Assembly (NCBI GenBank): GCA_964059195.1
Contig: CAXKWD010000005.1
Coordinates: 94,191,882 to 94,255,881, forward strand
From: Ectobius pallidus
Taxonomy: Eukaryota > Arthropoda > Insecta > Blattodea > Ectobiidae
Direction of reading: 5' to 3'
DNA: 64,000 nucleotides
Shown here in pieces: positions 22,845 to 45,945 of the stretch (within the stretch, counting starts at the first letter, position 1; each line of letters begins with the position of its first letter). The position numbers and the translations under genes are program-made. A model generated the notes under the pieces. The model worked only from the letters and a program-made list of their open reading frames with translations, did no database searches and was not told the DNA's origin.

Positions 22845-23302
22845 CATAGAACAATTAAACAAGTTAATTGCAATTATTTTAAACTGTGGTTTAATTCTAA
22901 TGAATTATTTTTAAATCATGAAAAAACACAGTCTATTCTTTTTAGTCTAAAACCAAATAATAATGACATTTCTTCGACCTATAATGATGATGTAAAATTT
23001 TTAGGAGTCTGCCTTGATAACAAGCTAAACTGGGACAAGCATGTAACGTATCTCTGCACAAGAATCAGCAGGATTGTATATTTATTAAGAAATATTAGGT
23101 ATGTGTTACCAGCTTATCATTTGCGAAGTACTTACTTTGCCTTCTTTCAGAGTGTAATAGCTTACGGTAATATTTTCTGGGGAAACAGTTGCCAAATTTC
23201 CAAGATTTTAATTTTACAGAAGAGAGCCATAAGATCAATCACAAACTCAGAACAGACTGCTCATTGTAGACAGCTTTTTAAGAACTTGCAGATTATGACT
23301 GT
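22845..23302 (+). pseudogene. LINE ORF2, reverse-transcriptase C-terminal region (left half)
   Basis: An open frame (22839-23327) reads FKLWFNSNELFLNHEKTQSI, then VKFLGVCLDNKLNWDKHV, YLLRNIRYVLP, VIAYGNIFWGNS and QKRAIRSITNS, and finally LFKNLQIMTV. This is the canonical region after the YADD box in CR1/Jockey-type LINEs. At 23303 the LINE stops and the giant element begins. The next LINE codons (V-I-N-L-Y-I-F-E) are found at 45575, in frame, so one copy of the GT at the junction restores the reading. About 155 codons are intact. Confidence 0.85.
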
Positions 23303-23323
23303 TAGGGCCCGGGGGTTTAGCCA
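23303..23323 (+). repeat. left terminal inverted repeat of the giant element
   Basis: Perfect complement of 45554-45574. It interrupts the LINE frame directly after codons reading L-Q-I-M-T. The palindromic GGGCCC is embedded three bases from the tip. Confidence 0.9.
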
Positions 23324-23927
23324 ATAATTCGTCAAGTTAGTGATGCACAAGGCATAGAAAGCTTCCTGACTTAGTAAACAACTTGCACTGCATGTGGCAG
23401 TTTAGTGTTCTGTTGACGTCGTTGTGTGTTGTGCGTTCTTGACAACCAGTGGCGGATCATAGCTAAAATGAGTGGGGGTGCTGCTCCAGAAAATGTTCAG
23501 CCTTTTGTTTAGAAAAGCTACTAAGTAATATCACAGTATAAGTATTAATACAGTAAGGAAACTGTGTGTTAAAAGTCCTATGACAACTTGTTAGCTGGGC
23601 GACACTAGCGCTCCATGCGGCGGTTGAGTAAAACTGCATTCTCACCATATAAAATAACTTGGAAAAATGCATAAACACATAACAAAATATGTTATAATAA
23701 GAGAAAAAAATCTTCTTTCAAAACTGAATTTTAAATTTAAGAAACAATGAAGCATGTATTATATTTTAGTTAAGATCAGGCACAATTTTTAAATGCCACT
23801 TACCTGTGACGGATAGTTAACTTGCACTGCAGTTCCTAGGGCTATTCTTATTACAAGTTTTAATAACTTCAAGATGATTCTTGGTAAACCAATTATAACT
23901 CATTTTTATTTTTAAAAGTAGCCTAAT
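23324..23927. other. subterminal region of the giant element, no gene recognised
   Basis: Downstream of the THAP exon on the minus strand, where further transposase exons would be expected, I find only short frames without motifs. A CAGTGGCGGATC string at about 23451 resembles a hAT terminus, but no matching partner was confirmed. Confidence 0.45.
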
Positions 23928-24395
23928 CCACCGCTGTGGCTCAGGGGATGCGTTCAATCCTCTCACGCAGCGGGCCCGGGTTCGATTCCTGGTCGGGACA
24001 AGTTACCTAGGTGGGGTTTTTTCTGGGGTTTTTCCTCACCTTTGAGACAAATGTCGGGTAACTTTAGGCCCTTGTGGTCCCCAGATATCATCTGGCTGTC
24101 ATTATCATCTTCATCCCATCCTCGCCTTGTTTGGAGTGAGTGTGTGTGTGAATGGTGTGTCTCGTCCTATGTGTTCGTGTTGTCTCGGAGGTGGCCCCGG
24201 CATTGGGCTGATCACTCATTCGGGGAGGCCCTCCATGTCTTTGTCTGGTCAAAAAAGTATGTATGTGATCCAAAGATAATCCCTCTCCCGACAGGTCGCG
24301 GCCCTGTAAGGCCCGGGCGGCTTGGGTCGCTTAAATCCTAAAAAGGGAGAGGTTAAACTACGAGAAAGAAAGAAAGAAAGAAAGAAAGAAAAGTA
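23928..24395 (+). mobile_element. tRNA-derived SINE family A, copy 4 (most complete)
   Basis: Complete from head (CCACCGCTGTGGCTCAGGGG near 23929) through B box GGTTCGATTCC near 23980 to a perfect GAAA tail at about 24362-24392. It is the best full-length reference for this family in the window, about 460 bp. It inserted into the left end of the giant element, between the THAP exon 2 and the left TIR. Confidence 0.85.
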
Positions 24396-24532
24396 GCCTA
24401 ATATTACATTAGAATAGAAATGTCATCATTTTACAAAAATAATACAATATTACATAAAATACAATACAAAATTCAAATAAAAATATAGGTTTCTATCAAT
24501 ATTTCTCAATTTCTAATACTCCAAAACTGCTT

Positions 24533-24698
24533 TTAGTATACAGTCGGTACAGCAGTTTTAATTAAAGAGTTCTTATTGGAATTCATAAACTGGCTGTTTT
24601 CGAAGTGTTCCAAACATAGGCGGCAATTTACATTTAAATATTTTACAGTTTTTGTTAGTAGGTCTTCTCGCCGACTATTGATGACCCATTTTTTACAC
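24533..24698 (-). CDS. THAP zinc-finger protein, exon 2
   Basis: Minus-strand exon preceded by the acceptor GTAATGATTTCAG; its first base completes an Arg codon begun in exon 1. It reads CKKWVINSRREDLLTKTVKY, then YLNVNC, RLCLEHFENSQFM and ends KTAVPTVY before TAA at 24535-24533. The second Cys pair partners (C-x2-H in CLEH) and the closing AVPT[V/I][Y/F] box are hallmarks of the C2CH THAP domain, a sequence-specific DNA-binding module of about 90 residues. Joined to exon 1, the domain is complete (89 codons). Either the protein ends here, or a donor inside the last codons (ACT|GTATAC) leads to a further exon that I could not find. The frame is intact, with no stop or frameshift. Confidence 0.82.
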
Positions 24699-25317
24699 CT
24701 GAAATCATTACAACAATTGAAGGTAGATCGAAGCCGTAAGATACAGAAACAAAATACAATCTCAACAATGAAGTTGAGGACGAGCAGTGTGACAAACCTA
24801 TATTCAAAGGTCACTCTTTAATATAATTTATAACTTAAACGTTGATTTTAAAGGTGGGAAAAACCTTGGACTAGATACGCTTCTTAACAGTAGCCTTTTT
24901 TAGGTAAGCCTATTGCTTGCCTAGGTTTGGATAATGATGTCATGTTAGTTTACTGTCGCAAACACCTTAATGGCACATGTATCCGAGAATTTATGATGTA
25001 AGATTATATTTTCGTCATCTTTACGCCTACATCGTGTTCGAGAAAATAAATATCGTACCGCCTGTAAAATCGGCTATGTGCACTTTTTTACGAAATTGAG
25101 TTATGTGCACTGATATTCCTTAGCATTGATCCTTACAACCGGGCATGTGGATCTTTCATTGTCAGGTTTGTGCAAGCAAAGAAAAAAAATCGGCTACATG
25201 CTGCAAAATGGCCATGTGCATTAGAGCTCACATAGCCATTCTTGACTGCCAACACGGCACACATGTTTGTATACATAACCGGCCCTGACATATACATTAC
25301 AATGCACATAGGAAATA
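24699..25317. other. left end of the THAP intron, unassigned
   Basis: No further exon or bounded repeat recognised. The 3' end of the 18.7-kb intron lies at 24699. Confidence 0.45.
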
Positions 25318-25842
25318 AAATCAGGTAAACTGATGTAACAAAGTGCCAGTATGTTTTTGTTTAATCAGTTATGACTGCAATTATGATATGCAGAATATGT
25401 TTTTTTTTTAAATTGATTTCCAAGTTAAGCTCCAGATTTATTCATTAAGCAGAGCTTACGGAAGAAGAAAGGTCTACCATCTCGGCCACCTGGGTCATTT
25501 TAACGGTCTAGTTGGATAAGCGAATGCACTGCCTTCTATATCTTACAAGCCATGCTGCTTGAAATCTGACAACACAGGAGGTAGTCCTATCTGTGGTGGT
25601 CTGTGGGAATCATTTGAATACGTTTTTAATGCAGATATTTTTCTTTATCACAAATACCGATTTTATTTAGGCGAAATCAGTAAGTCTATTATATGTATTA
25701 CATAGCATATACTTGTGATGTGCATAATAACGTAATGCGCGGTGACTCCACATAGCCTATCCGAAGGAATTCGTAGTTTTCAGTGTCTCCTCATACGTTA
25801 CGATGTCGCGTTTTTTTCTTATTTTATTGATAATAACCTCAC

Positions 25843-26564
25843 TTATCCTGTTAGGCCTACGAACTCTGTTATTTTACCCACAACAGAGTCATATTTTATT
25901 AAACTGCTACACTTCTCTGGGTCATTTTGTACCACCACTGAGCTAGTTGTCCCAGGTTTAATATAACCTAGAACACTGATATCTCTTTTCTTGTCACATG
26001 CACTTTGTGGAAGACTACGCTCATGACTGTCACTGAAAAGAATAACTTTGCCTAATTCCTTGGGAACACTCAGCTTTCCGTTATTTGCTGTCAAGTCATT
26101 CATTCGTTCATCATCCGGTGGTGAACTGTGTTGATTCGCCAGCACTTTTGAGGTTAAGGTTTCAATCCCGTTCATTACCTTCACCAAACTGTAGGAAAAC
26201 GCTGGTAGTAATATTGGGAGGATAGGAGATTGAATATATACGATTTGGCGTCTGCCACATTGAGATGTATTAGGCCTACTGTGAGCAGCTTGATAAAAGT
26301 TCTTACCAGTAGAAGTGACTCTATTTCTCTTCAATTCTTCTTTAATACCAGCCAATTCTTCCTTAAGGACACTAATATCATACCGTACCTCACTCTGGTA
26401 TTCGTTTGTAGCTGATAAACACGAAATTCTTCTGTGTAAAACTGTTCTCTGGTGTACTCAATTACAGGTGACGGTTTATATAAATCTCTCATTATGTACA
26501 CGGTTTTTACCTTCCCCATGCTCTCCAGTTGGTCTTCAGGTGTATCTAGATGTTCTCTAAACAA
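25843..26564 (-). pseudogene. degenerate SGNH-hydrolase-like ORF in a repeat element
   Basis: The frame ending at 25843 reads VSVLKEELAGIKEELKRN-like coiled-coil sequence, then LSVPKELGKVILFSDSHERS and ISVLGYIKPGTTSSVVVQN. FSDSH[E/G]R followed by a V-x-G-x-[I/V]KPG/KPNA block resembles the N-terminal half of an SGNH-hydrolase-like domain found in ORFs of several arthropod repeats (recalled). The catalytic GDSH-type Ser is in SDSH. The C-terminal half with the second catalytic block is absent; the upstream part is in another frame (26331-26564). It is therefore a broken coding region of a mobile element and not a host gene. Confidence 0.4.
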
Positions 26565-27636
26565 TAGGCGATGACTGGGATTACTTTAAGCTGAAATATG
26601 CTTAATTTTTCGATGATTCTGATGGAGTTCATTGCTTTATTTACAACATGTTCATAGCCGATAGGACTACCGATGCGATGTTGCCAGATTTAACAGCATG
26701 GCTTTTAAGAAATAAAGAAGGTAGTGGCGAATGTAAATCAATATGTTTTTTGTCATAGCTACCTGTATTTTAATTTCCAAGGCCTTATAAGATCACAGTA
26801 AAACAATAGGCTATGTTGTCAAGATAACTGATTTTCATTCTTTTATAAATTCTTTCGAATACGTATATTACCATAAAATAGGCACTAAATTGAGCATTAC
26901 TCCGAAACAGGTCAACCGATTTTATCCATTATGAATAGACGTCTTCCCATGGACATTATAAATGTGTATACCAAATTTCATAAAAATCCGGTAAAGCGTA
27001 TTTGAGTTACCGCGTCTTTAAAATATACACTAAATTGGGTTTTACTCCGGTACCGGTCTACCGATTTGGTCCAATATCAGTAGACGTCTTTCCACGTACA
27101 TTATAAATGGGTATACAAAATTTCAGGAAAATCCAATAAAGCATATTTGAGTTATCGCGACTTCTTATATATTAACATAAAAACACTAAATTGGGCATTA
27201 TTCCGGTACTGGCCAACCGATTTGGTCCAATATCAATAAACGTCTTCCCATGGACATTATAAATGCGTATACGAAGTTTCATAAATATCCGATAAAGCGT
27301 ATTTGAGTTATTGCGCCTTTAAAGTAGACACTAAATTGGGTTTTACTCCGGTACCGGTCAACAGATTAGGTTCAAATTCAATAAGGCACTTCTCATGGAC
27401 GTCATAAATGGGTATACCAAGTGTCATGGAAATCCGATACAGCGTATTTGAGTGATGGCGCCTTTCTATTAGAAAGGCGCCATAATCTATTAAAATAGGC
27501 ACTAAATTGGGCATTACTCCGGTACCGGTGAACCGATTTGGTTCAATATCAATAGGGTTCTTCCCATGGACATTATAAATGTGTTTTCCAAGTTTCATGA
27601 AAATCCGAAAAAGCGTATTTGAGTTAGGGTGCGTAC

Positions 27637-27722
27637 AGACACACGGACAGACGGACAGACAGACGGACAGACAGACGGACAGACAGACGGACAGACAGAC
27701 GGACAGACAGACGGACAGACAT
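27637..27722. repeat. CAGACGGA microsatellite
   Basis: A tandem run of CAGACGGA and CAGA units near the right end of the repeat copy at 25318-27769. The long Ser-Val-Cys-Leu frame on the minus strand is a product of this run. Confidence 0.9.
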
Positions 27723-27774
27723 TTTTTCGTCCACCACACAATCTCATAAAGTACCATACTGGCACTTAATAACC

Positions 27775-28316
27775 ACGTACCTCATCACACGAGATGTTAG
27801 AAATGTTCTCCTCTTTCATCCCCACAATACTGGCACCTTTTTAGGAAATTTTCTTTCACGCGCGTAAGTTCAGCTTCCGAGACAGAGGTACTTTCTCTTC
27901 TAACAGTATGTAAATATTATTTATAAAGAAACTTGAAAAATAAAGTGTATAGGTCAATTTCCCATACATAAGAAGAACTTAAAGACAATATCACAAAAGA
28001 AATTAACTCCATCTCGGAAGCTGAACTTATTACGCGTGAAAGAAAATTCCCTAAAAAGGTGCCAGTATTATGTATGCAAGAGGAAAACATTTCCAACATC
28101 TCTTGTGATGAGGTACGTGGTTATTTTCATTGTAATTTTAACTGTAAATGTGAGAACCTGAATCATTACACCGACCGCGGCATTATTTGCGTGGATATTT
28201 CACCCGATCGCTCGGGAGTTGGAGCTGTGCCAGCCGCGACGCAGAAACCCGCGTCATTGGCCAACTCTTGCGTGGGACTCACTGTATATACAAGACTTTT
28301 ATTGTATGGACTTTAA
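27775..28316. repeat. interspersed repeat G, copy 1, with inverted arms
   Basis: The first ~130 bp (about 27775-27890, CACGAGATGTTAGAAATG...) is an inverted copy of about 28000-28130 (...ACATTTCCAACATCTCTTG). The remainder to 28316 matches 38770-39180 at about 85-90 percent by eye, including GAGGTACGTGGTTATTTTCA and CACCCGATCGCTCGGGAGTT. Function unknown; the 85-codon frame is not conserved between the copies. Confidence 0.65.
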
Positions 28317-28361
28317 GCACATTTTTAACAGTTTTAAAAGTTTTTAGTAATATTTATCACT

Positions 28362-28931
28362 AGGATTAGGATGTTTATGAAATGTCATATTTTTATTCTG
28401 ACTTCTGGTCATTTTGTGGTGTTGGTCATATTTTAACCACATTTGTAATTTAATGTCATATTTCAGTTATAATTTCGGTAAAGGTGCACAATTGTGTAGG
28501 GTATGTACTACATGGTCGATTTAAATTTGAAATTTATTTCAATTATTTAATGTTTATGCCAAAATAATAGGCAAGTTAGATTTTTAAATTAATGCAATTG
28601 TTCATATTTTATTGAAACACGCAAGATCTACAAAATATTACGAGTATTTGGAGTTGATGAAGCCAGCAAAGAAGAGAAAATTCTTTAAAAATAGAAGTTC
28701 ATTAGAAGTAAAACTGTAAATCACCTGTAAAATTGTTAAAAAGTGATGATCTGATTGAATTAATGTGAGGTAAGAATTATGTCTTTTAAAGTTTTAAACG
28801 GGAACATTTATTTTTTGAAATTATGTTATTTTATTAGGTCATATTTAGGATTTTTGGTCATATTTAGTCATTTGAAGGCCATATTTGCAGTCATATTTTC
28901 CGCTCTTTTAGGTCATAAACATCCGAACCCT
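28362..28931. mobile_element. MITE with 10-bp target duplication, just upstream of a gene
   Basis: Ends AGGATTAGGATGTTTAT and ATAAACATCCGAACCCT are imperfect inverted repeats. A perfect 10-bp duplication ATTTATCACT lies at 28352-28361 and 28932-28941. Duplications of 9-10 bp suggest a Mutator-type element, though the interior has no coding region. GTCATATTT repeats are frequent inside. A truncated copy lies at about 38632-38776. It ends only ~155 bp before the first ATG of the gene at 29088. Confidence 0.75.
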
Positions 28932-28941
28932 ATTTATCACT

Positions 28942-29087
28942 AATTCATTGTTTGTACAAGGTTTTATATTTCTAGACTAGTAGCGTATGCTACTTGTATA
29001 TGATAACCATAATAAGATAAGTTATGTTTAATAAAGTAGGATAAGTGTCTACTCTTTTTAAACACTGAGCATAGGTGGAAATTATAA
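28942..29087 (+). promoter_or_regulatory. possible promoter/5' leader of the repeat-protein gene
   Basis: 146 bp between the MITE and the ATG at 29088. It contains a TTTTATATTTCT string near 28963 that could serve as a TATA element and an in-frame TAA directly before the ATG. A CATAG splice-acceptor-like site at about 29066-29070 means a non-coding first exon further upstream is possible. Weak evidence. Confidence 0.25.
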
Positions 29088-29684
29088 ATGAAAAAGAACA
29101 AAAATATCAGTTCGCCAGTCTTCGGCGATTCGGTTGTCATTGTCTTATGCGCGAAAATGGTTGATTATCGTCGTTGCCGCGCAACATCTAACATCTTTCG
29201 AGAATCCTTCGAAATTTTCAGTCAAGTATTTACCAAACAAAATAATGGATCGGCCCACTTCGAATCCACGTCTAGTGGTTTTACAAAAAACACCAAGGAC
29301 TCCTGGATATCTAAATTTAGAAAGAAAATTAGGTCAATTTATATTTTCAAACCGAGCGACTCCGACCACAGTAAAGATTCAGCATCGGCATCACCTGAAC
29401 CACCCCACCTCACCTTAGTGCCGAAGACAGAAAGGAGGAGAATGAAGGATCACCCTGTATCTAGACACCTCACCAAGTCCAAGTCCGCCTCACCGGCCAG
29501 TCTTAGAATCGTGAAGCTACGGCCAACACACACCAGGTCTGTGATGGACATACCCCGGCAGAAGAATCCTGTATCAGAAAAGAGGCAGCTGTCCCATATT
29601 CCCAACAAGCCACTTCCTGCCCATGCCCTCAGGTTTCAAAAGTCCGGCAAGATTCCCGAATATATGCCTGAGTCCATCCCTAAG
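29088..29684 (+). CDS. unrecognised basic repeat protein, exon 1
   Basis: 199 codons open from ATG 29088, which follows an in-frame TAA. A second in-frame ATG at 29157 (MVDYRRCR) has the better start context (GCGAAAATGG), so the protein may begin there. The exon ends with CCTAAG|GTAATT, a good donor in phase 0; reading on gives a stop 10 bases later. The segment is rich in Lys, Arg, Ser and Pro, with no signal peptide or membrane segment; it ends PEYMPESIPK. It joins precisely to exon 2 at 32512 (also phase 0). No known family recognised. Its length, codon-level openness and matched splice sites support a real gene. It lies wholly within the giant element and within the THAP gene's intron, on the opposite strand. 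Confidence 0.7.
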
Positions 29685-29729
29685 GTAATTAAATAGTATA
29701 ACATGGAATCCGCCTTATACCATAATAGT

Positions 29730-30451
29730 TAGACCTGGGATTTTAGGCTCTAAAAAATTAGTTTTAGGCTTTTAACACAAGTAACTTAAATAGACTTTTA
29801 AAAGAGAAAATTGGCACTTAAAATAAGCTTTAAAAATGAGTAAATAGACAGAAAATAGACTTTAAAATACTACAATATGCTCTTAAACTGTAACGTGATT
29901 TTTTTTACTGTAAAAAGCGTGGTATACCTATTCTGAACAGAAATAATTGTAGTATTGCGATGCAAGCAATGGAGCATGCTGATTATTGAAAAAAAAGAGA
30001 CAGAATTAAAAATCCTTTATCAAAAACAGTTTTGTATTATATGAAAAATTCACACGGTATGTCCCTTCTTACTGTATACATATATATATATATACCTGCT
30101 ATTTGTTGTTTTGAGCGAATCCTCCCCGTCAGTCAGCATTTCTTTTGCGACAAGTGTTTGGGAAAATCAAGTTTCTGTGAAAAACCCACCCTCTGCTGTT
30201 CTGCTCTTTATTCAGGGATGTCCATTAAATGATTGTAAAAGTTACAGAAGTTTGATTTTATTTTAAATTTACAAAATAGGCATTTTAGGCACTAAAAGAG
30301 CAAAAATAGGCTCCAAAGGTCCAAATAGGCATTTTAGGGCACTATAAAACTCTATAAATGTAAGTGATATATCATGAAATGTCAACAAATTTACAGAACT
30401 TCATGCTATTTCATAAGGAACAAAATAGGCATTTGCCTTATCCCAGGTCTA
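29730..30451. mobile_element. hAT-type MITE with TAGACCTGGGAT termini
   Basis: Inverted ends TAGACCTGGGAT and ATCCCAGGTCTA, flanked by a perfect 8-bp duplication ATAATAGT at 29722-29729 and 30452-30459. The interior is AT-rich with TTAGGC-type subterminal repeats and no coding region. Confidence 0.85.
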
Positions 30452-30559
30452 ATAATAGTACACAAGCCCATAAAGACATTTATCAAAACAGGAGTATGTG
30501 GCTATGCTCGTTTTCCAAGATTTTCATACGAGTGTCTTAATGGCCATTATGGGCACTAT

Positions 30560-31082
30560 TAAAAACACTTTTTTATTTCAGCTGTACTCTCACTCATTCA
30601 CTATAGCCACAGCCCGTTCTTGGAATTCCTTCTCACAAGATATCAGGGGTAGTCGGAGAGTACATTCTTTCAAAACTGGGCTTATTAAACAATTATTGTC
30701 CAGTGAACAGAACTAGCTCTTTGTAGTCACTCCATCTCTCATTGTACATATTAGCATTACTTCATCTTCTTATAACTTAAATAACTACCCAGGCCTATAA
30801 CTTTATTTCACAAACTTAAAAGTTCCATTATAAGTTAATTTGACATTTTCCTTGTTTTGCTTGTAATATTATTTTTTCTTCCATGAAACTTACTCTTTTT
30901 ATGAAACATATGCTTTTTACTTAATTAATTATTATGTTTAGCCTTAACCTTAGTTTTAGTATTAGTCATTAGTATCTTATCCATTACTTTGTTATTAATG
31001 TAAAACTACATTGTATTTTTAACCTGCTTGAGTGGAAGAGAAGGTCTTATGGCCTTAACTCTGCCAGGCAAAATAAATAATT
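30560..31082 (+). mobile_element. LINE 3' end (CR1/L2-like)
   Basis: A short coding trace near 30590-30716 reads TIATARSWNSFSQDIRGS and ends SFKTGLIKQLL before a stop, the usual last residues of CR1-type reverse transcriptases. It is followed by about 370 bp of untranslated sequence ending CTGCCAGGCAAAATAAATAA, the typical 3' terminus of this group. Severely 5'-truncated. Confidence 0.7.
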
Positions 31083-31359
31083 TATACTCCTTTTAGCTGC
31101 GAGGCCATACCAGGGGTTCGGGATATGTGTCTATACAGTAGGGCAGGCCATGGAACAATTGATTATCAATTGTTTCTATTACTGGAGTATTTTTATGGAG
31201 TAAATTCAACTGATATTAATTTAAATGGATATGATACAGGATGAAATAGTGAGGATGATTCATGATATGTAAATATCCAATTCGGCATTTGCCTTTACGA
31301 CTGGGGAAACAAAAAAAAAACATGTCAAATAGGCCGGCCACGAGATTTAAAAACATTAT

Positions 31360-31541
31360 TCAGATCTAGTGGATATTGTGGTGCCAACGGCGGGACTATA
31401 AGGTTTACGTCACGGGAAACCGGGGCACCCGGCTGCCCTGATCCCATTTTGTACATCCCAAATTCAACATGCATCCACAGAGATTTGATCCCGGGTCCCA
31501 GCAGTGGAAGGCGAGCAGTCTAACTGCTCAGCCATGGATGA
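31360..31541 (-). mobile_element. tRNA-derived SINE family E, copy 1
   Basis: On the minus strand, an A-box-like CATGGCTGAGCAGTTAGAC and a B box GGATCAAATCTC. The same head is found at 62815-62957. The right end is near 31541; the left border is approximate. Confidence 0.6.
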
Positions 31542-31626
31542 ACTATTAAAAAAATACTTGCATTAGCAATTATTGCTTTAAGTCTCTATAGTTTCATAAT
31601 TTATAGTTAGTATGCTATATAATATA

Positions 31627-32139
31627 CGAGGGTGGATCGAAAAGTAAAGCATAATAATTTCTTTTACAAAAAGTTTAATAGTTACAATTACAAATAAAGT
31701 CACACGTGAAGGGACATCTTTTGTCTACTTTTCTAGAAAATCGCCAAGTTTCTTAACACATTTCTCCCATCGTGATAACAGTTTAAAAATATCATGTTCA
31801 TAGAAGTTCGTTCGGTTGGCGTATAGCCATCTGCGGAATGCTGTTTTCACTTCTGCGTCTGACGCAAAGTTTTACCGGTCATAAATTTCTTCATGGGACC
31901 AACGCTTTGCGTCAGATGCAGCAGTGAAAACAGCAGTCCGCAGATAGGTATACGGCAACCGAACGAACTTCTATGAACAGGGTATTTTGAAACTGGTATC
32001 ACGATAGGAGAAATGTGTTGAGAAACGTGACGACTATATAGAAAAATAGACAAAAGATGTCCCTTCATGTGTGCATTTGTTTGTAATTGTACCGATTCAA
32101 TTTTGTAAAAAAATTGAGTTACTTTTCGATCCACCGTCG
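31627..32139. mobile_element. fold-back mariner-type element
   Basis: Ends CGAGGGTGGATCGAAAAGTA and the complement (TACTTTTCGATCCACCGTCG) flanked by TA on both sides, as in Tc1/mariner. The two halves are inverted copies of each other almost to the centre; for instance GTTCGTTCGGTTG near 31806 pairs with CAACCGAACGAAC near 31955. Both halves derive from the same end of a mariner, so it has no transposase. Confidence 0.8.
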
Positions 32140-32511
32140 TATATTTTTAGCACTGCCTTTTAGACTGTATTACTCGTGTATACACTGCCTGTCCTATACG
32201 GCTAATTTTGCGTACGCGGCGACATTACAGATGGCAGTACCATTCACACCCAGCTGCAATACCCTTTAACATTACCGTATGCTGTGTTGCCCTCTGAAGT
32301 ATAAACTCGGAAACTGAAATATGCTGGAATTTCATGCTATCTGGGTGTGAACTGTGTCGCCTCTACTGGAGATATTAGGCGATTTAACAATACTCTGATC
32401 TCCATGTTAAAATTAAGCATGGACAGGCAGTGTAATTCTCGAGACGGCGGTGATTTTTAGTTGGCACTCAATATAATGAAGGGTCCTTTATCTTTTTAAT
32501 TCATCCCAAAG

Positions 32512-35316: not shown

Positions 35317-35401
35317 AGCGTCAAACAAACACAGGCTGCATTAAGTGCCAAACAAACGCTGGCACCTGAAGGCTTGCACAAGCCCAAGTATACGCAGCAG
35401 C

Positions 35402-35407
35402 AATAAA
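35402..35407 (+). terminator. polyadenylation signal candidate
   Basis: AATAAA 85 bases after the stop codon of the repeat-protein gene. A plausible end for its mRNA, though a single hexamer is common by chance in AT-rich DNA. Confidence 0.4.
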
Positions 35408-35432
35408 ATAGTGGCAGCAGAAAGTTCGTAAG

Positions 35433-35789
35433 CCGCAGGGCTTTCATTGATTTCAATGACAGTAAAGAGCACAATTTCATTCATTGCAAAAGTATTGTGG
35501 CAATTTAAATTGATCAAACTTTTCAAAATCTATATAACATCAACAGAAAATAGCGGACTTATAAATTTGGACATGTTCTTATGCTATAAAATTGTGGATT
35601 GTTCATGAAATCCGCAGGGCTTTCATTGATTTCAATGACAGTAAAGAGCACAATTTCATTCATTGCAAAAGTATTGTAATTTAAATGGATCAAACTTTTC
35701 AAAATCTATATAACATCAACAGAAAATAGCGGACTTATCAGTTTGTACATGTTCTTATACTAATAAAATTTCGGATTGTTCATGAAATC
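35433..35789. repeat. tandem duplication, two copies of ~179 bp
   Basis: Copies at 35433-35611 and 35612-35789, each starting CCGCAGGGCTTTCATTGATT and ending GTTCATGAAATC. They differ by a few substitutions and small indels. They lie just downstream of the gene's AATAAA, in the possible 3' region. Confidence 0.9.
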
Positions 35790-35940
35790 TATGACATAAA
35801 TGGCAACTCAAGATTATAATGTTACCTTGAAACCTGTGAAATACCGCGCTTATGATCAAAACATAGGGAGAGTAATAAATCAAGCAGAGTGCAGAAGAAT
35901 ACATTAAAATTTCTTGGATCTGGCATTACAATTTATTTGC

Positions 35941-36772
35941 AACGAGGGTGGACCAAATATAAACGAGACTATTTTAGGGCATAATTTTCAGCTAAGGAAG
36001 CTGCTACTTTATGGCATGTTGAAGGGGGGGGGGAGAGAGCGATCAGACGCCCTTGTGAGATTGCAATACAGCAAGGATATATCAGAAAAAAATGCAACCT
36101 TCCGTTGCGCAATGCAGTATCTCGCTAAATGAAAGCGCAACATTTTGCGCAAACTGTTGGCACAGTTTAGGGAACAAACTCTGTCAACGTCGCGTGTTTT
36201 CACTTGGCACAAGGCGTTTGTGAGAAGCCGTGGAGTTCCCTATGAAAGCCAAGTCTGGGCATTCAGAAGGCTTTTGACTGTTTTTTTTGGGGGGGGGGGG
36301 AGGGAGAGCATTTTATACGTTGATTTTGTACAATATCGTTGCGCAATCAATGCGGCGTACTACTGCGAGGCTTTCAATGAGGCTAAAAGACGTGACTAAC
36401 CGGTAGAAGAAGAGATCCTTCTTCATGACAATGCAAGAGCTGTCACACGTACCAAAATGGAGAAAATAGTTTAACAACCTTCTTAGTGTCCTGATTTATT
36501 AGCTTGCGATTTTCATCCTTTTTGGTCCAGTCCAAGAAGCTGAGGATGGCCAGCAATTCGACAACGTTGATGGGATGGAGCAATTCGTACGCAATTGGCT
36601 AATGACACAACCAACTCTTTTTTTTTTAATTAAAAAGCTACAGATTTGCTCGGAAAAAATGCATTTCCAAAGCAGGAAATTCTATACAAAAATGAAAAAC
36701 ACTTAATTTTGTGTTTATTGCAAACAAAAATAAATGAAAAATAGTCTCCTTTATATTTCATCTACCCTCGTA
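35941..36772 (+). mobile_element. degenerate mariner element
   Basis: Left end ACGAGGGTGGACCAAATATA and right end TATATTTCATCTACCCTCGT are imperfect inverted repeats. Inside, on the plus strand, pieces of a DD34D transposase survive in several frames: STSRVFTWHKAFVRSR (helix-turn-helix end) near 36185-36230, LHDNARAVTRTKMEK near 36420-36465, and PDLLACDFHPF near 36490-36525, matching the HDNARPH and SPDLAPSDYHLF motifs, with Asp in LACD retained. Runs of G near 36027 and 36290 and many frameshifts mark it as long dead. Confidence 0.75.
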
Positions 36773-37119
36773 TCATGGAAGACAGAGGTTATCTGCCTCT
36801 CTACCCATAGTATTTTATCTAATACAATATAAGACAATGAGATAAATTTAAAAGGGCATAAGTTAAGAGCAACAACAATGCCAGAGTCAATGCATAGGTT
36901 GTCTTTCTCAGAATTGAGTGCTATAACAGAAGAACAGTTACACACTCTGCCCAAATAAAAGTTTTGCCTCTTAGTATAATATATTTTTAATGACATTCTC
37001 TTCATGTAAATTGGTTTTAAAAATGAAGAGAATGTCGTTACCACATCACATCCCCGAAGGATACACAACCCAAATAAAATTTGATTAACGCACTCACGTA
37101 ACTTTCTTTACTCTAAGCA
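36773..37119. other. unassigned stretch
   Basis: The 105-codon minus-strand frame at 36751-37068 has no motif. Confidence 0.4.
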
Positions 37120-37668
37120 TAGGCAATACAGCTTTCTCACTTCACACTCTGATATAGAAGAAGAGGCCGTATTGCAAAGAGCACGGATACAGTTATTTCA
37201 ACCTGATGCCAAACTTTATTCTTCACGAGGTAAGACTGAGTTTCTATAAACAATGGGTGGCTTATAACTACCCTTCAGAGAATTTATGCAAAAAAAGTTT
37301 TAAAAAAAGTATTAGCTCTTAGAATAAGCACCCCAAGAATAAAATTTAAAGATAATCGTAAGAGACGTTTTCGAAAAATGGCGAAAAATGAAATTTTCTT
37401 TATAAAAAGTGGCATTAGGGGTAAGAGTGTCACATCCCCTAAAGATACCTGAGTCAAATACAAAATGTTGTTTTCATATGATTTTTCGTTCTAGAGCTTG
37501 GCTGTTCACAGACACACACAGACATATTTCTGAAAAATAGCATTTTTGGATTCAGGTAACATCAAAACGTGTATTTATATTAAAAACGTGATTCGAAATT
37601 TGGGCTAGAAATCTTGCTCTCCTATGTTACGGTAAATATGTTACGGGTAGAGGAAGTAAAAAAGTACT
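37120..37668 (-). repeat. interspersed repeat X, copy 1
   Basis: In reverse complement it matches the repeat at about 46772-47480. Shared blocks include GGGTGGCTTATAACTACCCT, TTCATATGATTTTTCGTTCT, a short CAGACACACACAGACA run (equivalent to the GTCT run near 47040) and GGGTAGAGGAAGTA. No coding region. Confidence 0.6.
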
Positions 37669-38631
37669 TCTAGAGCCTATTAAAGGCGAGCAGGACGCTG
37701 ATAATCTAAGGCGAGCGACAGACGTTCAAATTTCAAAAAAATCCCTTTAGGCAAGCCTACAGGCTGAGGTAGATTTCGAAGTGCTTTTGGTTTAATTTAC
37801 TGTCAATGCGTAGCACTCTTCTTCTTTAGCCTTTGCATGACAAACCCGCAATAATAACTCCAAAAAAGAGGAAAGAGCACTTTTTCAAACATTCAAATCT
37901 CGCCTTATATGAGAACTATCAGGAAACTAGTTATTGATTTGTAGAGTACTCATCAAGAGCTTTTCAACGATACCCCACAAGACGTAGTTTCAAAAATTTC
38001 GAATTTCCATCCCCCCCCTCCGCCATCCCCACTCGTACCCCCAAAACCCCGAATCGTTGGTATCACTGCAAATTCCATAGGGAGCACTCTAATTTATTCA
38101 AACAAAGTTTCCCTCTATACTTCATAGGGGCCGAGATATAAATGTTTTAAAATTTCAACCCCCTCCCCCGACCACCCTCTTGGGCCAATTTTGCTCATTA
38201 ACGAACTTGTCCGAACTATTGGGCCTAGAAATAACATAATAAAATTTGGTTCAAATATCTTCAAAATTACGGCCGCTAGCGTGTAAAAATATAAATATAT
38301 ATATATATATAAATATCACAATTTTCTTTTTGAACGGGCGGTGGTTTCGTACTTAAGGAAGCATGAAACGTAAAGATATGAAATAATTTTTCGAAAATCA
38401 TGACATGGTATCCATTGCAATAGGTAGATTTTTCTTCGAAAACTACTTAATTATGTAAAATCTTATTTACACATGGCCTGGGACTTTCCAGAATTTGGAA
38501 ACGGATTAGAGCCTTCCAGTCGGGTGGATGGATGTAGTAATTCTGGGCTTTCGTGAGCTACTAGCACTGCGTCCATCTTTAGGGAGGAAATGAGCTGGTC
38601 GGAAATGAAGGGTTAGTTATTATTATGGTTC
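37669..38631. other. unassigned stretch
   Basis: No gene. C-rich patches occur near 38010 and 38160 and a short TA microsatellite near 38296-38312. Confidence 0.45.
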
Positions 38632-39180
38632 GGATGTTTCTGACATGCCATATTTTTATCCTGACCTCCATTCTCGCCAAAAAACACAAATTAAACATGA
38701 ATCGCACATTTACTACCCAAATCGGACCGTTTTTATTTTTCATATAAAGTCATATTTTGGTCATTTTCTTTGTCCTTGGTAAATTGACCTACACACTTTA
38801 TTTTTCAAGTTCCCCCATAAATAATAGTCACATACTGTCTGTTAGAAGAACTTATATACAATATCACAACAGAAAATAACTCTGACTCGGAAGCTGAACT
38901 AATGCGCGTGAAAGAAAATTTCTTAAAAAGGTACCAGAGTTCTGTGGATGCAAGAGGAGTACATTTCAAACATCTCTTATGATGAGGTACGTGGTTATTT
39001 TCATTGTACTTTCAACTGTAACTGCGAGAACCTGAATCATTACACCGTTCGCGGATTTATTTGCGTAGATACTTCACCCGATCGCTCGGGAGTTAGATCT
39101 GTGCCCGCCGCGACGCAGAAACCCGCATGATTGGCCAACTCTTGCGTGGGACTCACTGTATAAACAGTATTTGTAAAAAC
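38632..39180. repeat. truncated MITE (28362 family) followed by repeat G, copy 2
   Basis: From 38632 GGTTCGGATGTTTCTGACAT matches the left end of the MITE at 28362, ending about 38776. From there to 39180 the sequence matches the repeat at 27775-28316. It abuts the 145-bp-module copy at 39201; at the other locus the order is reversed (module repeat then G). Confidence 0.6.
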
Positions 39181-39420
39181 ACCAATAAATAAATAAATAA
39201 AATCAGGTAAACTGATGTAACAAAGTGCCAGTATGTTTTTGTTTAATTAGTTATGACTGCAATTATGATATGCAGAATATGTTTTTTTTTTTTAAATTGA
39301 TTTCCAAGTTAAGCTCCAGATTTATTCATTAAGCAGGGCTTACGGAAGAAGAAAGGTCTACCATCTCGGCCACCTGGGTCATTTTAACGGTCTAGTTGGA
39401 TAAGCGCATTAAATCAATAT

Positions 39421-40275
39421 GTTTTTTAGTACACGCTCTCTAAAACAGCTGCTTATCGGATTGGTAACACGCCGAAAAGCTGCACTTTAAAGGACAAGGC
39501 CGCTAAAATTGCATAATAGTGCATTCAAACTGCATTCAAAATGCAATTTTAGCGGCCTTGTCCTTTAAAGTCGTCATGGCAATCTATAAACAAAACCCAG
39601 ACGGCATTGACCAGTCACACCAACTTTAACATGGATTTACGCATATAATTGGTCATAAAACAACAAATTTAAGCCAACACGTTTCTTTATGATAATCAGA
39701 AACTTTACCAGGATTTTTTGCAAAACACGGTAGCCCACTTCATCACATGACAACAAATATAAGCCAACAACTTTTCACATCTTCGTTCACATAGCTTACA
39801 TGGATGCACCAGCATTTAATTGCAATATATTCCCTATTCCTTCTGCCATGATGTTGCTGGTACCAGCTCCAATTCAATGTTTTTGACTTTGAGTGAAATT
39901 TCCTCGGGATTATAATTCATATTTTCACAAGCTTTTCATAAATACTAGTTCGTATTTATTATTGTTTACAAATCAGCTACTCATATAACTCATCTATAGC
40001 CTACCTCATTTCGTTTTGGTATGTACGGTTCATTGTTGTCTTGCGTTTGAGAGGGCCTTGAGAATACGGTTGACTGCATTTCATTATAATTAATTATATA
40101 CGGTATTTTTGTTTCATTTCATATAATTTAGAGAGCTATCACTAAAAAATATTGTATGCACCACGTACGCAAAAACTTTAGCGGACTCATCCAGTATTTC
40201 AGCCTCGGCTTTCGCCTCGGCCGCTATACTAGATTCGTCCGCTAAAGCGTTATTTTGCGTACTTGATACATAAAT
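39421..40275. mobile_element. insert within module-repeat copy 3
   Basis: Absent from the matching site in copy 2. A partial inverted repeat TTTTTTAGT..CTCTCTAAA at 39422 pairs with TTTAGAGAG..ACTAAAAAAT near 40129. It contains two strong palindromes: 39485-39570 and 40165-40262 (ends GTACGCAAAA and TTTTGCGTAC). Confidence 0.55.
39485..39570. repeat. perfect 29-bp hairpin arms with 28-nt loop
   Basis: CTTTAAAGGACAAGGCCGCT and 9 more bases at 39485-39513 are exactly complementary to 39542-39570. Confidence 0.9.
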
Positions 40276-41258
40276 AGCTATTTTGTCATAGCTACCTGTA
40301 TTTTAATTTCCAAGGCCTCATAAGATCACAGTAAAACAATAGGCTATGTTGTCAAGATAACTGATTTTCATTTTTTTAAATAAATTCTTTCGAATACGTA
40401 CCGGTATATTACCATAAAATAGGCACTAAATTGAGCATTACTCCGAAACAGGTCAACCGATTTTATCCATTATGAATAGACGTCTTCCCATGGACATTAT
40501 AAATGTGTATACCAAGTTTCATAAAAATCCGGTAAAGCGTATTTGAGTTACCGCGTCTTTAAAATATACACTAAATTGGGTTTTACTCCGGTACCGGTCT
40601 ACCGATTTGGTCCAATATCAGTAGACGTCTTTCCACGTACATTATAAATGGGTATACAAAATTTCAGGAAAATCCAATAAAGCATATTTGAGTTATCGCG
40701 ACTTCTTATATATTAACATAAAAACACTAAATTGGGCATTATTTCGGTACTGGCCAACCGATTTGGTCCAATATCAATAAACGTCTTCCCATGGACATTA
40801 TAAATGCGTATACGAAGTTTCATAAATATCCGATAAAGCCTATTTGAGTTATTGCGCCTTTAAAGTAGACACTAAATTGGGTTTTACTCCGGTACCGGTC
40901 AACAGATTAGGTTCAAATTCAATAGGGCACTTCTCAAGGACGTCATAAATGGGTATACCAAGTTTCATGGAAATCCGATACAGCGTATTTGGCGCCATAA
41001 TCTATTAAAATAGGCACTAAATTGGGCATTACTCCGGTACCGGTGAACCGATTTGGTTCAATATCAATAGGGTTCTTCCCATGGACATTATAAATGTGTT
41101 TTCCAAGTTTCATAAAAATCCGAAAAAGCGTATTTGAGTTATGGTGCGTACAGACACACGGACAGACAGACGGACAGACAGACAGACGGACAGACAGACG
41201 GAGAGACATTTTTTCGTCCACCACACAATCTCATAAAGTACCATACTGGCACTTAATA

Positions 41259-41747
41259 ATATATGATAATAAGTGTTTGTCAGTTTGTCTGTCTGTGCGC
41301 GATGTTCAGCGAAATCTACTGCACGCAGAAATCTGAAATTTTAAACATAGATGGACTGAAGGGTGGCCGAATGCACCTCGAAGCCGGATTTTTCATTTTC
41401 GCTATCGTTCGCTAGTTATGAGTGAAAAACTGGCAGAAAATATGAATATTTTTGCTATCGAAGCATCAATTTTTGGTAATATATTTCAATTGTCAAATCA
41501 ATTGCAGGTGGGTGTCTTGTTTTGTCATCCTACTTGGAAATAAAAGCATCGCAATTTTTTCAATATATTGCATGGATTTATTGTTCGTTTCGATTCTGTG
41601 AGCTGACCGTGGTCGATTCGTTTGTTTATAAGGTCAAATATAATAAAGGCGCTTTCTAATCGTGGAACTCGCTCCAAAGCCGGATATTTCGTTTTTCATA
41701 AGTATTAATTGTTTAGTTTATGAATGAATCGCGTGTGTTAATACCGG
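41259..41747. other. unassigned stretch
   Basis: No feature recognised. Confidence 0.4.
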
Positions 41748-41996
41748 GGTGCGCGGGCAAAGAGAGTTAAGTCCACTTTCTTGTTACTGAGAATTAGAGT
41801 GACTTAACACAGTATACCAGCCCTACATAGCTTTAGAGATGGATAAACCCATGAGGCACACATCCATAACTACCGTCCTTTTTTAATATGACTTACTGGA
41901 CTTAACACAAATGTAGAGAACATTTTTATCTATAACTCTATGGACATATCTCAATTTTTTAGTATGGTGGACTTAACTCTCTTTGCCCGCGCACCC
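41748..41996. mobile_element. 249-bp MITE with perfect 29-bp inverted repeats
   Basis: GGTGCGCGGGCAAAGAGAGT plus 9 more bases at 41748-41776 is the exact complement of 41968-41996. No coding capacity. I could not fix the target duplication, so the superfamily is open. The perfect ends suggest recent activity. Confidence 0.78.
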
Positions 41997-42117
41997 GCCA
42001 ATTATTTTTCTATTAATTTTTAATCGAATTAATTATCGTGGGCGAAGCCGCGGGCTCCTGCTGGTCTGTTAGTAAGAACAACAACAACAACAACAACAAG
42101 AATTATACTAATAATAA

Positions 42118-43191
42118 AATCAGGTAAACTGATATAACCAAGTGCCAGTATGTTTTTTTTTTTTAAATCAGTGATACACGCAATTATGATAGGCCCATGC
42201 ATTAAAGTTATTTTTGTAATAGATGTCCGAGTTAACTCCAAAAACAAAATGTGCCGGCAATAATAATAATGATGCAATAGACCTACGATTCGCTGATATC
42301 TCTGTTTCAATTTAAAGCAGCCTTAAAGGTTATGAATGAATAATAAGCATATGAAATCTATCTGTCAGGAATTACATTAGGTATATTGCTGCACAGGAAC
42401 GATAAGAAAAATACTCACAGTAAAATATAGCCTAATGTAAATATCGGTAGTCTACATAACCATAGAATACACATTATAATATCAATATTCATCGGCTAGT
42501 TGTTATAAATCGTTTATTTAAATTATTATTTACCCACACTGACATCCTTATGAAGAAACAAATCAATCAAGGTTGCTAACAATATGAATAAACGATTGGC
42601 AATTTGTTAAGTTTTTTAAATACATTGTGGGCCTTGAAAGAATATTGATTACAAAATTAATATTGATATACTCGTTACTTCGGTACCGGTCAACCGATTT
42701 GGCCCTAATTCAATAGGCTTGTACCCAAAAACGTCATAAATTCGTATACCAAGTTTCAAGAAAATCCGATAAAGCGTATTTGAGTTATCCACGCCTTTGT
42801 TATATATTACCATAAAAAGGCACTAAATTGGGCATTATTCCGGTACCGCCCAACCGATCTGGTCCAATATCAATAGACATCTTCCCATGGACATTATAAA
42901 TAGGTATTCCAAGTTTCATGAAAATCCGATAAAGCGTATGTGAGTTATGGCGCCTTTAAAATATACACTAAATTGGGTTTTACTCCGGTACCGGTGAACC
43001 GATTTGGTCCAATTTCAATAGGGTTCTTCCCATGGACATTATAAACGCGTATACCAAGTTTCATTAAAATTCGATAAAGCGTATTTGAGTTAGAGCGCGT
43101 ACAGACACACGGACGGACGGACGGACGGACAGACGGACAGACATTTTTCGTCCCCCACACAATCTCATAAAGTACCATACTGGCACTTAAT
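42118..43191. mobile_element. 145-bp-module repeat family, copy 4 (short form)
   Basis: Left end ATCAGGTAAACTGATATAAC with AAGTGCCAGTATG, right end CATACTGGCACTT. Only about three modules (from 42680) and a CGGACGGACGGA run at about 43112-43142. No SGNH-like ORF. Confidence 0.75.
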
Positions 43192-43437
43192 AAGCTGCAC
43201 CGCAGCAAATATTGTGTTATCTTAAGCGATCACAATACGACATCCTAAATATTGTTATCTTTAACCGTGATATAGACTGCTGACATTTTCATTTCATTAG
43301 TATCGATTGTTAGAAATTACAACATAATTAAAGATAAAAATATTACATTAAAGTAAATGTAAACATAACCACACCAGAACATGTGTCAAGAGTAAGCCAG
43401 CAGGCATACAATAAATATTACGTATTGTTCTTCTTAC
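43192..43437. other. start of the THAP gene intron, otherwise unassigned
   Basis: The intron begins with GTAAGAAG reading leftwards from 43437. Nothing else recognised. Confidence 0.5.
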
Positions 43438-43541
43438 CTTTCTGGATCTTTTGGGAAAGTGAAGAAATACAATTCAGGATTTCTTCCTTTATTGTTACTG
43501 CAATTTATAGCAGAACAATAACATCCTTTCGAAACACGCAT
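43438..43541 (-). CDS. THAP zinc-finger protein, exon 1
   Basis: Minus-strand exon from ATG (43541-43539) to the donor GAAAG|GTAAGAA. It encodes 34 residues plus two bases of an Arg codon: GCYCSAINCSNNKG, then LYFFTFPKDPE. This is the N-terminal half of a THAP domain: the first zinc pair as C-x4-C (CSAINC) and the FxFPxDPxR box. Exon 2 at 24698 supplies the missing base and continues C-K-K-W, giving the canonical DPERCKKW junction. Two independent signals, splice phase and domain continuity, tie the exons together over an 18.7-kb intron. The conserved frame suggests the domain was selected until recently. The role is presumably DNA binding, in related transposases to the element's own ends. 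Confidence 0.85.
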
Positions 43542-43683
43542 TGCTATAAAAATTCAAGACTCCTATTTTTTATTTCCATTCTTCCCGCAGTAGTGATTGT
43601 AGTATTACTCAATGGCCGGTAGGATCGCTAGGTAATCTGCGCGCGCATGTCCGTCTGGCAGAAAAACGGGCTGAGTTTCTTTA

Positions 43684-44867
43684 GGGCCAGTTGTATAAAA
43701 CTCACAAACTGATGGTTGTTTTTAACTGAAAGTTTGAAAATAACTAGCTACTTATGTTGTATAAAAATAACCATAGATTGTGTAACTCACAGTTTTAAAT
43801 AACTGGAGAAAATAATAAAACATCTGGCAACAGTGCAAAAGTTGAGGGAAATTTGCAGGGAGTATTATGTTTATATCTTTGGTCTATGGTTTACAGTTGT
43901 TCAATTTAAGACAAAGCACCATGTTACACATATGTCTTTGGTATTTATTTCAATTGCTTAATAAAGATGAGTTTTTTAAATTATTTTTTTAAAATCATTT
44001 CATTGAGGCCATGTATATTTTTGCTTCAAACTGCTTTAACCTGTCTATAGAGGTGTTTAGGTGTGTAAACGCAACCTACAGTACCTATAATTCCTGGAAG
44101 GTTACGAATATTGTAGATATCTAATATTGTTTTCTTAAGACACTGTCCTCAGTTGGAATTCAAATAAACCGAGACCTTAAAGTATAATTTTCTCTTGTCA
44201 ATTTATGAATGGTTCTAATGGCTGTTCTTTGTCCTCAGTAACTATTTGTAAGCTTCCAATCACAATAATTCGCAAAGGACCTCAGGGCTGACCCTGAATA
44301 TCATAAACATATCATGAATTTGCTTTGTACTTGATTGTAATGGGAGGGAGACATAACCTCTATATAGTTGTTCTGCCCAAATTTTGGTAGCATGTCATGC
44401 AGTAGGCTACTAATAAAAGATTATGACATTCAAGAGATGCATGATGGGTTTTCATTGCATCACCAGATAGGGTATCAGAATAATCAGAAATCTAGAAATA
44501 AATGTTGCTATTTTGTAATGTGGGGCTACCATAACCAACAACAAAGCCAAGGTACCGGTGTCTGTATTTTTAATGTCATTAGACAAAATGAAAGCAAACT
44601 GAATCTAAATTATATGAAAATAATAATAACTCACACTGTACTTATAAAATGGATTTCTAGTGTCTTTTTCATTGTTTGAAATGTATTTAAAATTTCCAAA
44701 TCATCAGTTAATGTTTTAACTTGCAAAAATTCACCAGTTATATTAAAATGTTGGTTAGAATGAGATAAACCTGGATTAATGTTTATACAACAGAAAAAGG
44801 TAGTTAAATGTAACTGAAAGTTAATTTTGCATGATAACTACAGTTTACATGTTTATACAACTGGCCC
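43684..44867. mobile_element. PIF/Harbinger-type element, no intact transposase
   Basis: Inverted ends GGGCCAGTTGTATAAA and TTTATACAACTGGCCC, flanked by TTA on both sides (43681-43683 and 44868-44870). A 3-bp TTA duplication and GGGCC tips fit PIF/Harbinger. Open frames inside (up to 103 codons at 44368-44679) show no DDE or Myb-like motif I can recognise. Confidence 0.78.
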
Positions 44868-44870
44868 TTA

Positions 44871-45553
44871 CTGTATTAATACGTATACTGTGGTAATATC
44901 AAGTTCATTGCAAACAATTTCGGACTGTCTAGATGTATCACTCTTCTTAAATGGCACAAGCGATCAGACTCGTGGAGGAATTATTCATAGGTAGGTGCAA
45001 AAAATCTCCAGAAAAATGCAGTATTTTTCTACTGTTTTTACCTTTCGAGGTACACTGGAAGGTTTTACAGAAGACCATGATGTGTACCCACACAAGGGAA
45101 ACTAATAGCCTATCTCATCCCCCCGTCACGTCATGAGACGTAGAGAGAAGTTTTTACCATTAAAGATCTTCTTTGAAGGAAAATAGAAGATATTTTTCTT
45201 TTGAAAACTTCAAAATGTATATTGCCATTCACTGCAACAAAGCGTATGCACAGACATAATGTAACTTATAAATTGCCTTTTAATTTTCACTGTGAATATT
45301 GTTAACAAGTATTAAAGCATTGGCTTTGTATATTTATGTTCGTTTAACTAGGAAATATATTTTGTTTCTGTGATTTACGATTAAATGTGCAAACTATTCT
45401 ATGACGCTGTGTCTATCATTTCACTAGACTAGCTGCACTGCCCTTGAACTTGAATGTTCGTATTAAAGTGCGCCACTGAAAGCGAGTCACCCCTTCCCTC
45501 GTGTTTACATACGGCTATATCCCAGTCACCACTAACCTGATGTAATGTTTTTG
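44871..45553. other. right subterminal region of the giant element
   Basis: No gene recognised. If the THAP gene has a promoter within the element, it would lie here or in the DNA now interrupted by the Harbinger element. Confidence 0.4.
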
Positions 45554-45574
45554 TGGCTAAACCCCCGGGCCCTA
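45554..45574 (-). repeat. right terminal inverted repeat of the giant element
   Basis: Exact complement of 23303-23323. LINE sequence resumes at 45575 with the in-frame codons V-I-N-L-Y-I-F-E. Confidence 0.9.
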
Positions 45575-45945
45575 GTTATTAATCTATACATTTTTGAATT
45601 AATTTTATACATTAGACAAAATCTTAATCTGTTTGATGAAAGGAATGTTATCCACTCTTACAGAACCAGAAATGCCCATTTGTTACAGATTGCACAAGAC
45701 AGCTCAGAATTTTATGTATATGGGCTGTAGGCTTTATAATTGTTTGCCACCACACCACATAGCTCTTCCCAATATTGTATTCAAGAACAGACTTAGAACG
45801 TGGCTTCTCAATAATCCTATGTATGAAGTTAAAGAGTTTTTTTAATGTTGATTTGTCTAGTATGTAATTTATGTGTTTTTATATAATTATGTAATGTTTG
45901 TGTTTTTATATATTGACGTAGCCTATTGTTATTTTATTTAATGGC

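Follow-up and report, generated by a model that had tools for sequence, protein, structure and literature searches.

Non-autonomous hAT transposons, such as the BuT2 miniature inverted-repeat transposable elements (MITEs), occur in many short copies with 8-bp target duplications and short terminal inverted repeats (TIRs; 10–25 bp in hAT elements), and hAT elements of 2.5–5 kb are described in PMC3942097. Galileo elements of the P superfamily have long TIRs and combine a THAP domain with a 7-bp duplication of the target GTANTAC (PMC4168063, PMC10990002), and HINEs are defined by subterminal inverted repeats of 12–15 bp, a 3′ hairpin and a T-rich or TT target (PMC4067079). A 64,000-nucleotide stretch of the Ectobius pallidus genome (the window; C5:94191882-94255881) contains a 22.3-kb element, inserted in a long interspersed nuclear element (LINE), that invites comparison with all three. 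We consider it very likely that this element is a non-autonomous composite nested at three levels, in which a hAT-type shell contains a P-like element that in turn contains a block with HINE/Helentron-like ends. The outer ends and the target around them are as follows.

23303..45574, no strand assigned: whole composite, window copy, 22272 bp; the same ends are paired at 7 further loci
23303..23323, plus strand: outer (hAT-type) left TIR, 21 bp
45554..45574, minus strand: outer right TIR, 21 bp
23301..23302, plus strand: GT, probably what remains of an 8-bp target duplication on the left, judged from the duplications of the family
45575..45582, plus strand: GTTATTAA, right 8-bp target site copy, which fits nTnATnAn

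As the original prediction had reported from the letters alone, the outer TIRs are perfect over 21 bp (TAGGGCCCGGGGGTTTAGCCA from 23303, its reverse complement ending at 45574); similarity between the ends continues more weakly out to ~48 bp. The genome (2.12 Gb, 410 contigs) was searched for an exact 37-bp pattern spanning the hAT|P junction, the inner edge of the shell. It occurs at nine places, eight loci and a duplicate contig (C119), and at none in a reversed control, a count on which chance inverted repeats were rejected; diverged junctions would escape such a search. Over the loci the composite measures 19.2–32.9 kb. Copy A was read letter by letter and the other giant copies in part.

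C7:36343747-36365319: giant copy A, 21573 bp
C119:151070-172644: giant copy B, taken as a duplicate contig because its flanks and target duplication are identical to those of copy A
C7:84542690-84561867: giant copy C, 19178 bp
C5:116272818-116293683: giant copy D, 20866 bp
C6:110718098-110737756: giant copy E, 19659 bp
C2:106848075-106872363: giant copy F, 24289 bp
C5:80915836-80942673: giant copy G, 26838 bp
C5:93050683-93083553: giant copy H, 32871 bp

The three-layer unit is common to the giant copies and stands at different targets with hAT-type duplications. Its left 198 bp match at 97–100% in the best 40 of 1415 first-look candidates, and its right 200 bp at ~100% in the best 40 of 571. 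Movement of the giant composite was probably recent, the unique stretches compared between the giant copies and the window matching at ~98–99.7%. A search for paired copies of the ends elsewhere, the check that the original prediction had proposed, located giant copies at seven further loci, together with 36 short relatives; both ends were read in 30 of the latter (L031 and batches of 13 and 16 copies). The refuting condition of the original prediction, which included a lack of other paired copies, failed. The central claim, a mobile, TIR-bounded and very large LINE-inserted element with coding DNA, is therefore supported.

Exact 8-bp target duplications flank seven of the eight giant loci (all seven different: CTAATGAC, GTCATGAC, ATTATTAC, ATAATCAC, CTTATAAC, CTGATCAC and GTCATAAC) and 24 of the 30 short copies read at both ends, giving 31 of 37 loci with the window set apart. 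All 31 read nTnATnAn (the consensus was tallied over exact duplications), and all have T2 and A7 of the hAT target consensus, nTnnnnAn. Both this target pattern and TAGGG ends are hAT features. The outer element is therefore placed with hAT, and its TIR length of 21 bp lies within the hAT range. The suggestion that these ends might define a new superfamily found no support in the duplications and the TAGGG ends. In a small sample, the exact duplications ending in C were seven of seven at the giant loci and nine of 24 at the short copies.

With the LINE flanks joined and a single copy of the target retained, the reading frame stays open through LQIMTVINLYIFE and on to EFYVYGL. The original prediction had restored this frame by removing the element and one GT; the open frame stands, but the duplication typical of the family is 8 bp rather than 2 bp. 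We suggest that the window GT represents what is left of GTTATTAA, from which TATTAA would have been lost between two TA steps with the LINE frame kept. A TA target duplication was rejected because the LINE would then have a stop and a frame shift, and a 2-bp duplication, suggested by the LINE frame alone, because family copies show 8 bp.

The outer ends of the composite also bound a common non-autonomous element of ~950 bp, whose two arms enclose everything else in the giant copies.

23303..23531, plus strand: left arm of the ~950-bp hAT-type element (98% match between element 1-231 and short copy L031)
44893..45574, plus strand: right arm of the ~950-bp hAT-type element
23525..23531, plus strand: GTAATAT, left 7-bp target duplication of the P-like element, shared with the hAT arm
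44893..44899, plus strand: GTAATAT, right 7-bp target duplication of the P-like element
23532..44892, no strand assigned: nested P-like element, left 27-bp TIR at 23532-23558
43679-43683 and 44868-44892: right P-like TIR, split in the window copy into its inner bases and the rest
24539..24709, minus strand: C-terminal part of a THAP domain, within the P-like element

Short hAT-type copies are 901–1037 bp long and correspond to element positions 1-231 plus ~21591-22272. Their left ~200 bp match the giant at 96–98%, and the whole right arm, in the batch of 13, aligns at 71–88% with many small gaps. In the three short copies compared at the hAT|P junction the target is present once and uninterrupted, as CTAA(G/A)TAATATCAAGTTC; the giant has AAGTAATAT followed by CACAGTATAAGTATTAATACAGTAAGG and, on the far side, the matching inverted end followed by GTAATATCAAG. 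The left inner boundary is identical in all eight copies read (L001-L008). On the right, GTAATAT is found in the window and in copies A, B, C, D, F and G, and GTAATGT in E. The inner right end of copy H was located by search at C5:93081532-93081747, separated from the hAT right arm by extra DNA.

The P-like element also exists without the shell. Among the best 40 of 1110 first-look candidates for its left end, 31 matches lie outside composites, as do 33 of the best 40 of 1735 for its right end. One free copy (in L071; C8:47933309-47935129) is 1821 bp long, has ATCATAT on both sides, aligns across the THAP stretch and lacks everything between window 25319 and 43188. The 7–8 bp duplication of the P superfamily is thus seen at two sites, GTAATAT and ATCATAT. 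A six-frame Pfam scan of 23533-42468 returned THAP as its sole family (E 1.9e-8, profile positions 26-86 of 87); the N-terminal part of the domain was not found, nor, in the same stretch, were a P transposase catalytic domain, a hAT transposase (no search was made for a partner gene) or a Rep/helicase. Because no catalytic domain was found, we call the middle element P-like rather than a member of the P group. It shares with Galileo the 7-bp duplication (GTAATAT against GTANTAC) and has part of a THAP domain, but differs in its TIRs of 27 bp rather than long ones, in that no catalytic domain was found and in ATCATAT as its second site (PMC4168063, PMC10990002). The description of the element as THAP-associated held in that part of a THAP domain is present; that part belongs, however, to the inner P-like element, which is also found free.

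What the free copy lacks is a block of 17.9 kb that includes three HINE-like units, with further copies of such units elsewhere in the window.

25319..43188, minus strand: third block, 17.9 kb, HINE/Helentron-like ends, empty site in L071
25319..27767, minus strand: HINE-like unit 1, from its hairpin end at 25319 to the other end at 27767, with tandem repeats of 145 bp and an ACAG tract
39201..41254, minus strand: HINE-like unit 2
42118..43188, minus strand: HINE-like unit 3, whose end is the end of the block
32500..35316, plus strand: 938-codon frame with 62-residue repeats (codons 32500-35313), in the window copy with a single TAA (33865-33867)

The empty site in the free P-like copy reads GGAAATAA|GCTGCACC, and in the filled site the block starts with AATCAGGTAAACTGATGTAACAAAGTGCCAGTATG and ends with CATACTGGCACTT, with AATAA on both sides. 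On its minus strand the block has 13-bp subterminal inverted repeats (AAGTGCCAGTATG) at both ends, a hairpin near the 3′ end (ATCAG-tttac-CTGAT), tandem repeats of 145 bp and an ACAG tract, features also of HINE/DINE-1; the target is TTATT on the strand of the element, and flanks at the other units are A/T-rich. These shared features (subterminal repeats, end hairpin, tandem repeats with a microsatellite, T-rich target) stand beside differences from HINE/Helentron and DINE-1 elements, since the hairpin and repeat lie nearer the end, three units are spanned, the junction has a 5-bp repeat and no Rep/helicase was found (PMC4067079). The block is called HINE-like only, because Rep/helicase was not found and HINEs lack it. 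Palindromic repeats related to each other flank the region with the reading frame (27768-28292 and 38777-39166) and are possible edges of a gene-bearing unit; a palindrome of ~540 bp (83%) at 31613-32152 is possibly a hairpin MITE.

The cargo of the third block is a 938-codon open reading frame (ORF) with seven repeat units of ~62 residues. The two spliced genes of the original prediction are confirmed only in part, by the partial THAP on the minus strand and by this frame, which has a TAA in the window copy. It is open in copies A and G, with very few changes among these and the window. A genome search gave 96 matches (best 49 of 3115 first-look candidates scored), which group by eye into ~49 loci, nine in composites and ~40 elsewhere, at 86–99% protein identity. 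One protein search found no relatives at E ≤ 0.001 among 7995 scored candidates, and the Pfam family HTH_36 reached E 5.3e-5 on 32500-33864 but 23.4 bits against a curated cut-off of 25, with no single significant stretch. Between copy A and L074, omega was 0.45 over 780 codons (bootstrap 0.30–0.75) and 0.77 (0.33–1.77) for the non-repeat C-terminal part, and six repeat units of copy A compared pairwise gave 0.32 to 1.09 (a 58-residue unit was dropped). Nonsense changes at 39 of the ~40 non-composite loci numbered 20 against ~52 expected, and 27 of the 39 had none, in a tally with rounded identities and non-independent copies from which one locus in pieces was dropped. The evidence for purifying selection on the frame, drawn from these comparisons, is weak and mixed. 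In copy G (L014:336-3149), codons 126-151 of the first repeat unit form a patch that differs from the window and copy A and looks like conversion from a neighbouring unit.

We propose that a ~950-bp hAT-type element received the P-like element at GTAATAT, with a 7-bp duplication, and that the P-like element would have come to carry the block (17.9 kb in this copy) with its three HINE-like units and the 938-codon ORF, probably in this order. The block itself may be the product of a rolling-circle event that read through from unit 3 into unit 1. As both outer hAT ends are intact, the whole composite would be movable by a hAT transposase acting in trans, presumably from a source outside it, which would move 19–33 kb as one cut-and-paste unit; we infer mobilization in trans because the Pfam scans found no transposase.

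Several observations weigh against this interpretation. The window copy has no exact 8-bp duplication (GT on the left, GTTATTAA on the right), and among the short copies L060 differs by one base, L063 fits once shifted by 1 bp, L049 retains the final 5 bp, and the target sides of L061, L064 and L069 do not match. The giant copies align at only ~90–96% in stretches rich in tandem repeats. No autonomous hAT element with these ends was seen, although none was searched for, and the Pfam scan stopped at 42468. AATAA is repeated as 5 bp at the junction of the third block, and the hairpin and subterminal repeat lie 1 bp and 22 bp from the end at 25319 (uncertain by a few bases), compared with 8–35 bp and 38–60 bp from the 3′ end in mite HINEs (PMC4067079). 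Finally, for a free ORF copy on C1, whose downstream flank equals window 41589-41647 exactly before its own HINE-type end, the sequence 7.2 kb upstream showed no match to the left end. It is therefore too simple to take the free ORF loci as copies of the entire third block, and they could be a host gene family.

Some of these points bear on whether the inner layers of a hAT-type composite are instead other families with similar ends, neither P-like nor Helentron-like, which we regard as unlikely yet worth weighing. The scanned part has neither a P transposase nor a Rep/helicase domain, ATCATAT is a poor fit to the Galileo target, and AATAA flanks a block whose end spacing is unlike that of mite HINEs. 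THAP domains also occur outside P elements. On the other side, a 7-bp duplication with THAP is the Galileo pattern (PMC4168063), and the 13-bp subterminal inverted repeats, hairpin, tandem repeats and T-rich target fit HINE/DINE-1 (PMC4067079). A further possibility is that the element is one large autonomous transposon from a new superfamily, in which case THAP and the 938-codon ORF would be its own genes and the short copies its deletion derivatives. This reading would account for ends common to giant and short copies and for a frame open in many copies. It is very improbable given internal TIRs with their own 7-bp duplication, a single uninterrupted target in the three short copies compared, a P-like layer that occurs free with its own duplication and without the third block, ~40 ORF loci outside composites, and 8-bp duplications of hAT type. 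About as improbable is a spread of the copies together with flanking DNA, by segmental duplication or assembly artefact. One copy, on contig C119, does repeat the flanks and duplication of copy A and is a duplicate; the other loci differ in both flanks and 8-bp duplications.

The nested composite is, in our reading, a striking variant of known transposon kinds and not a new superfamily. Its shell resembles non-autonomous hAT elements in its 8-bp duplications, short TIRs and many short copies (PMC3942097), while the giants reach 19–33 kb and no hAT transposase was found in 23533-42468 of the window copy. Like the 14-kb ToxhAT (PMC6737239, PMC12506042) it is a large hAT-type unit with extra genes, but ToxhAT is fungal and the composite consists mostly of nested transposons in an animal genome. 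It shares with Starship giant transposons (PMC11623301) a giant size and cargo, and the enzyme differs. No description of such a three-layer composite was found in the titles and abstract openings of the literature searched, and the excerpt of PMC6431247 mentions neither ‘hAT superfamily’ nor ‘THAP’. The shell, at other places ~950 bp long as a rule, has taken 19–33 kb to eight sites, seven with exact 8-bp duplications. How large a unit hAT transposition can move thereby becomes testable, as does the mobilization of nested elements in trans. The Starship enzyme is a tyrosine recombinase. The composite shows how large coding DNA may be spread in animals by non-autonomous elements; that it serves as an animal cargo vehicle, its hAT shell carrying a large, still functional gene and its two nested layers providing two further spreading routes, is a tentative idea that we think rather doubtful.

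Individual copies also differ in other stretches.

23927..24389, no strand assigned: SINE-like (short interspersed nuclear element) insertion, ~14-bp repeat at its edges, absent from seven other left ends (L002-L008, one of them the duplicate contig)
43684..44867, no strand assigned: 1.18-kb insertion within the right P-like TIR, with a TTA duplication and inverted ends GGGCCAGTTGTATAAA
39428..40266, no strand assigned: 0.84-kb stretch in HINE-like unit 2, absent from copies A, B, C, F and G, the giant copies read at this place

The insertion at 43684-44867, which we take to be Harbinger-like, is absent from copies A, B, C, D, E, F and G. Judged from the copies compared, it and the SINE-like insertion are later changes in the window copy. 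Copy A has an insertion of ~3.7 kb, absent from the window copy, with a 767-codon reverse-transcriptase-like frame identified by eye (L029:903-3458). Outside the composite, an open non-LTR (long terminal repeat) retrotransposon frame of 1055 amino acids lies just downstream at 47709-50876 (RVT_1, E 5.4e-28; RNase_H, E 1.5e-10), and a palindrome of ~620 bp (84%) lies near the left end of the window at 1118-1738.

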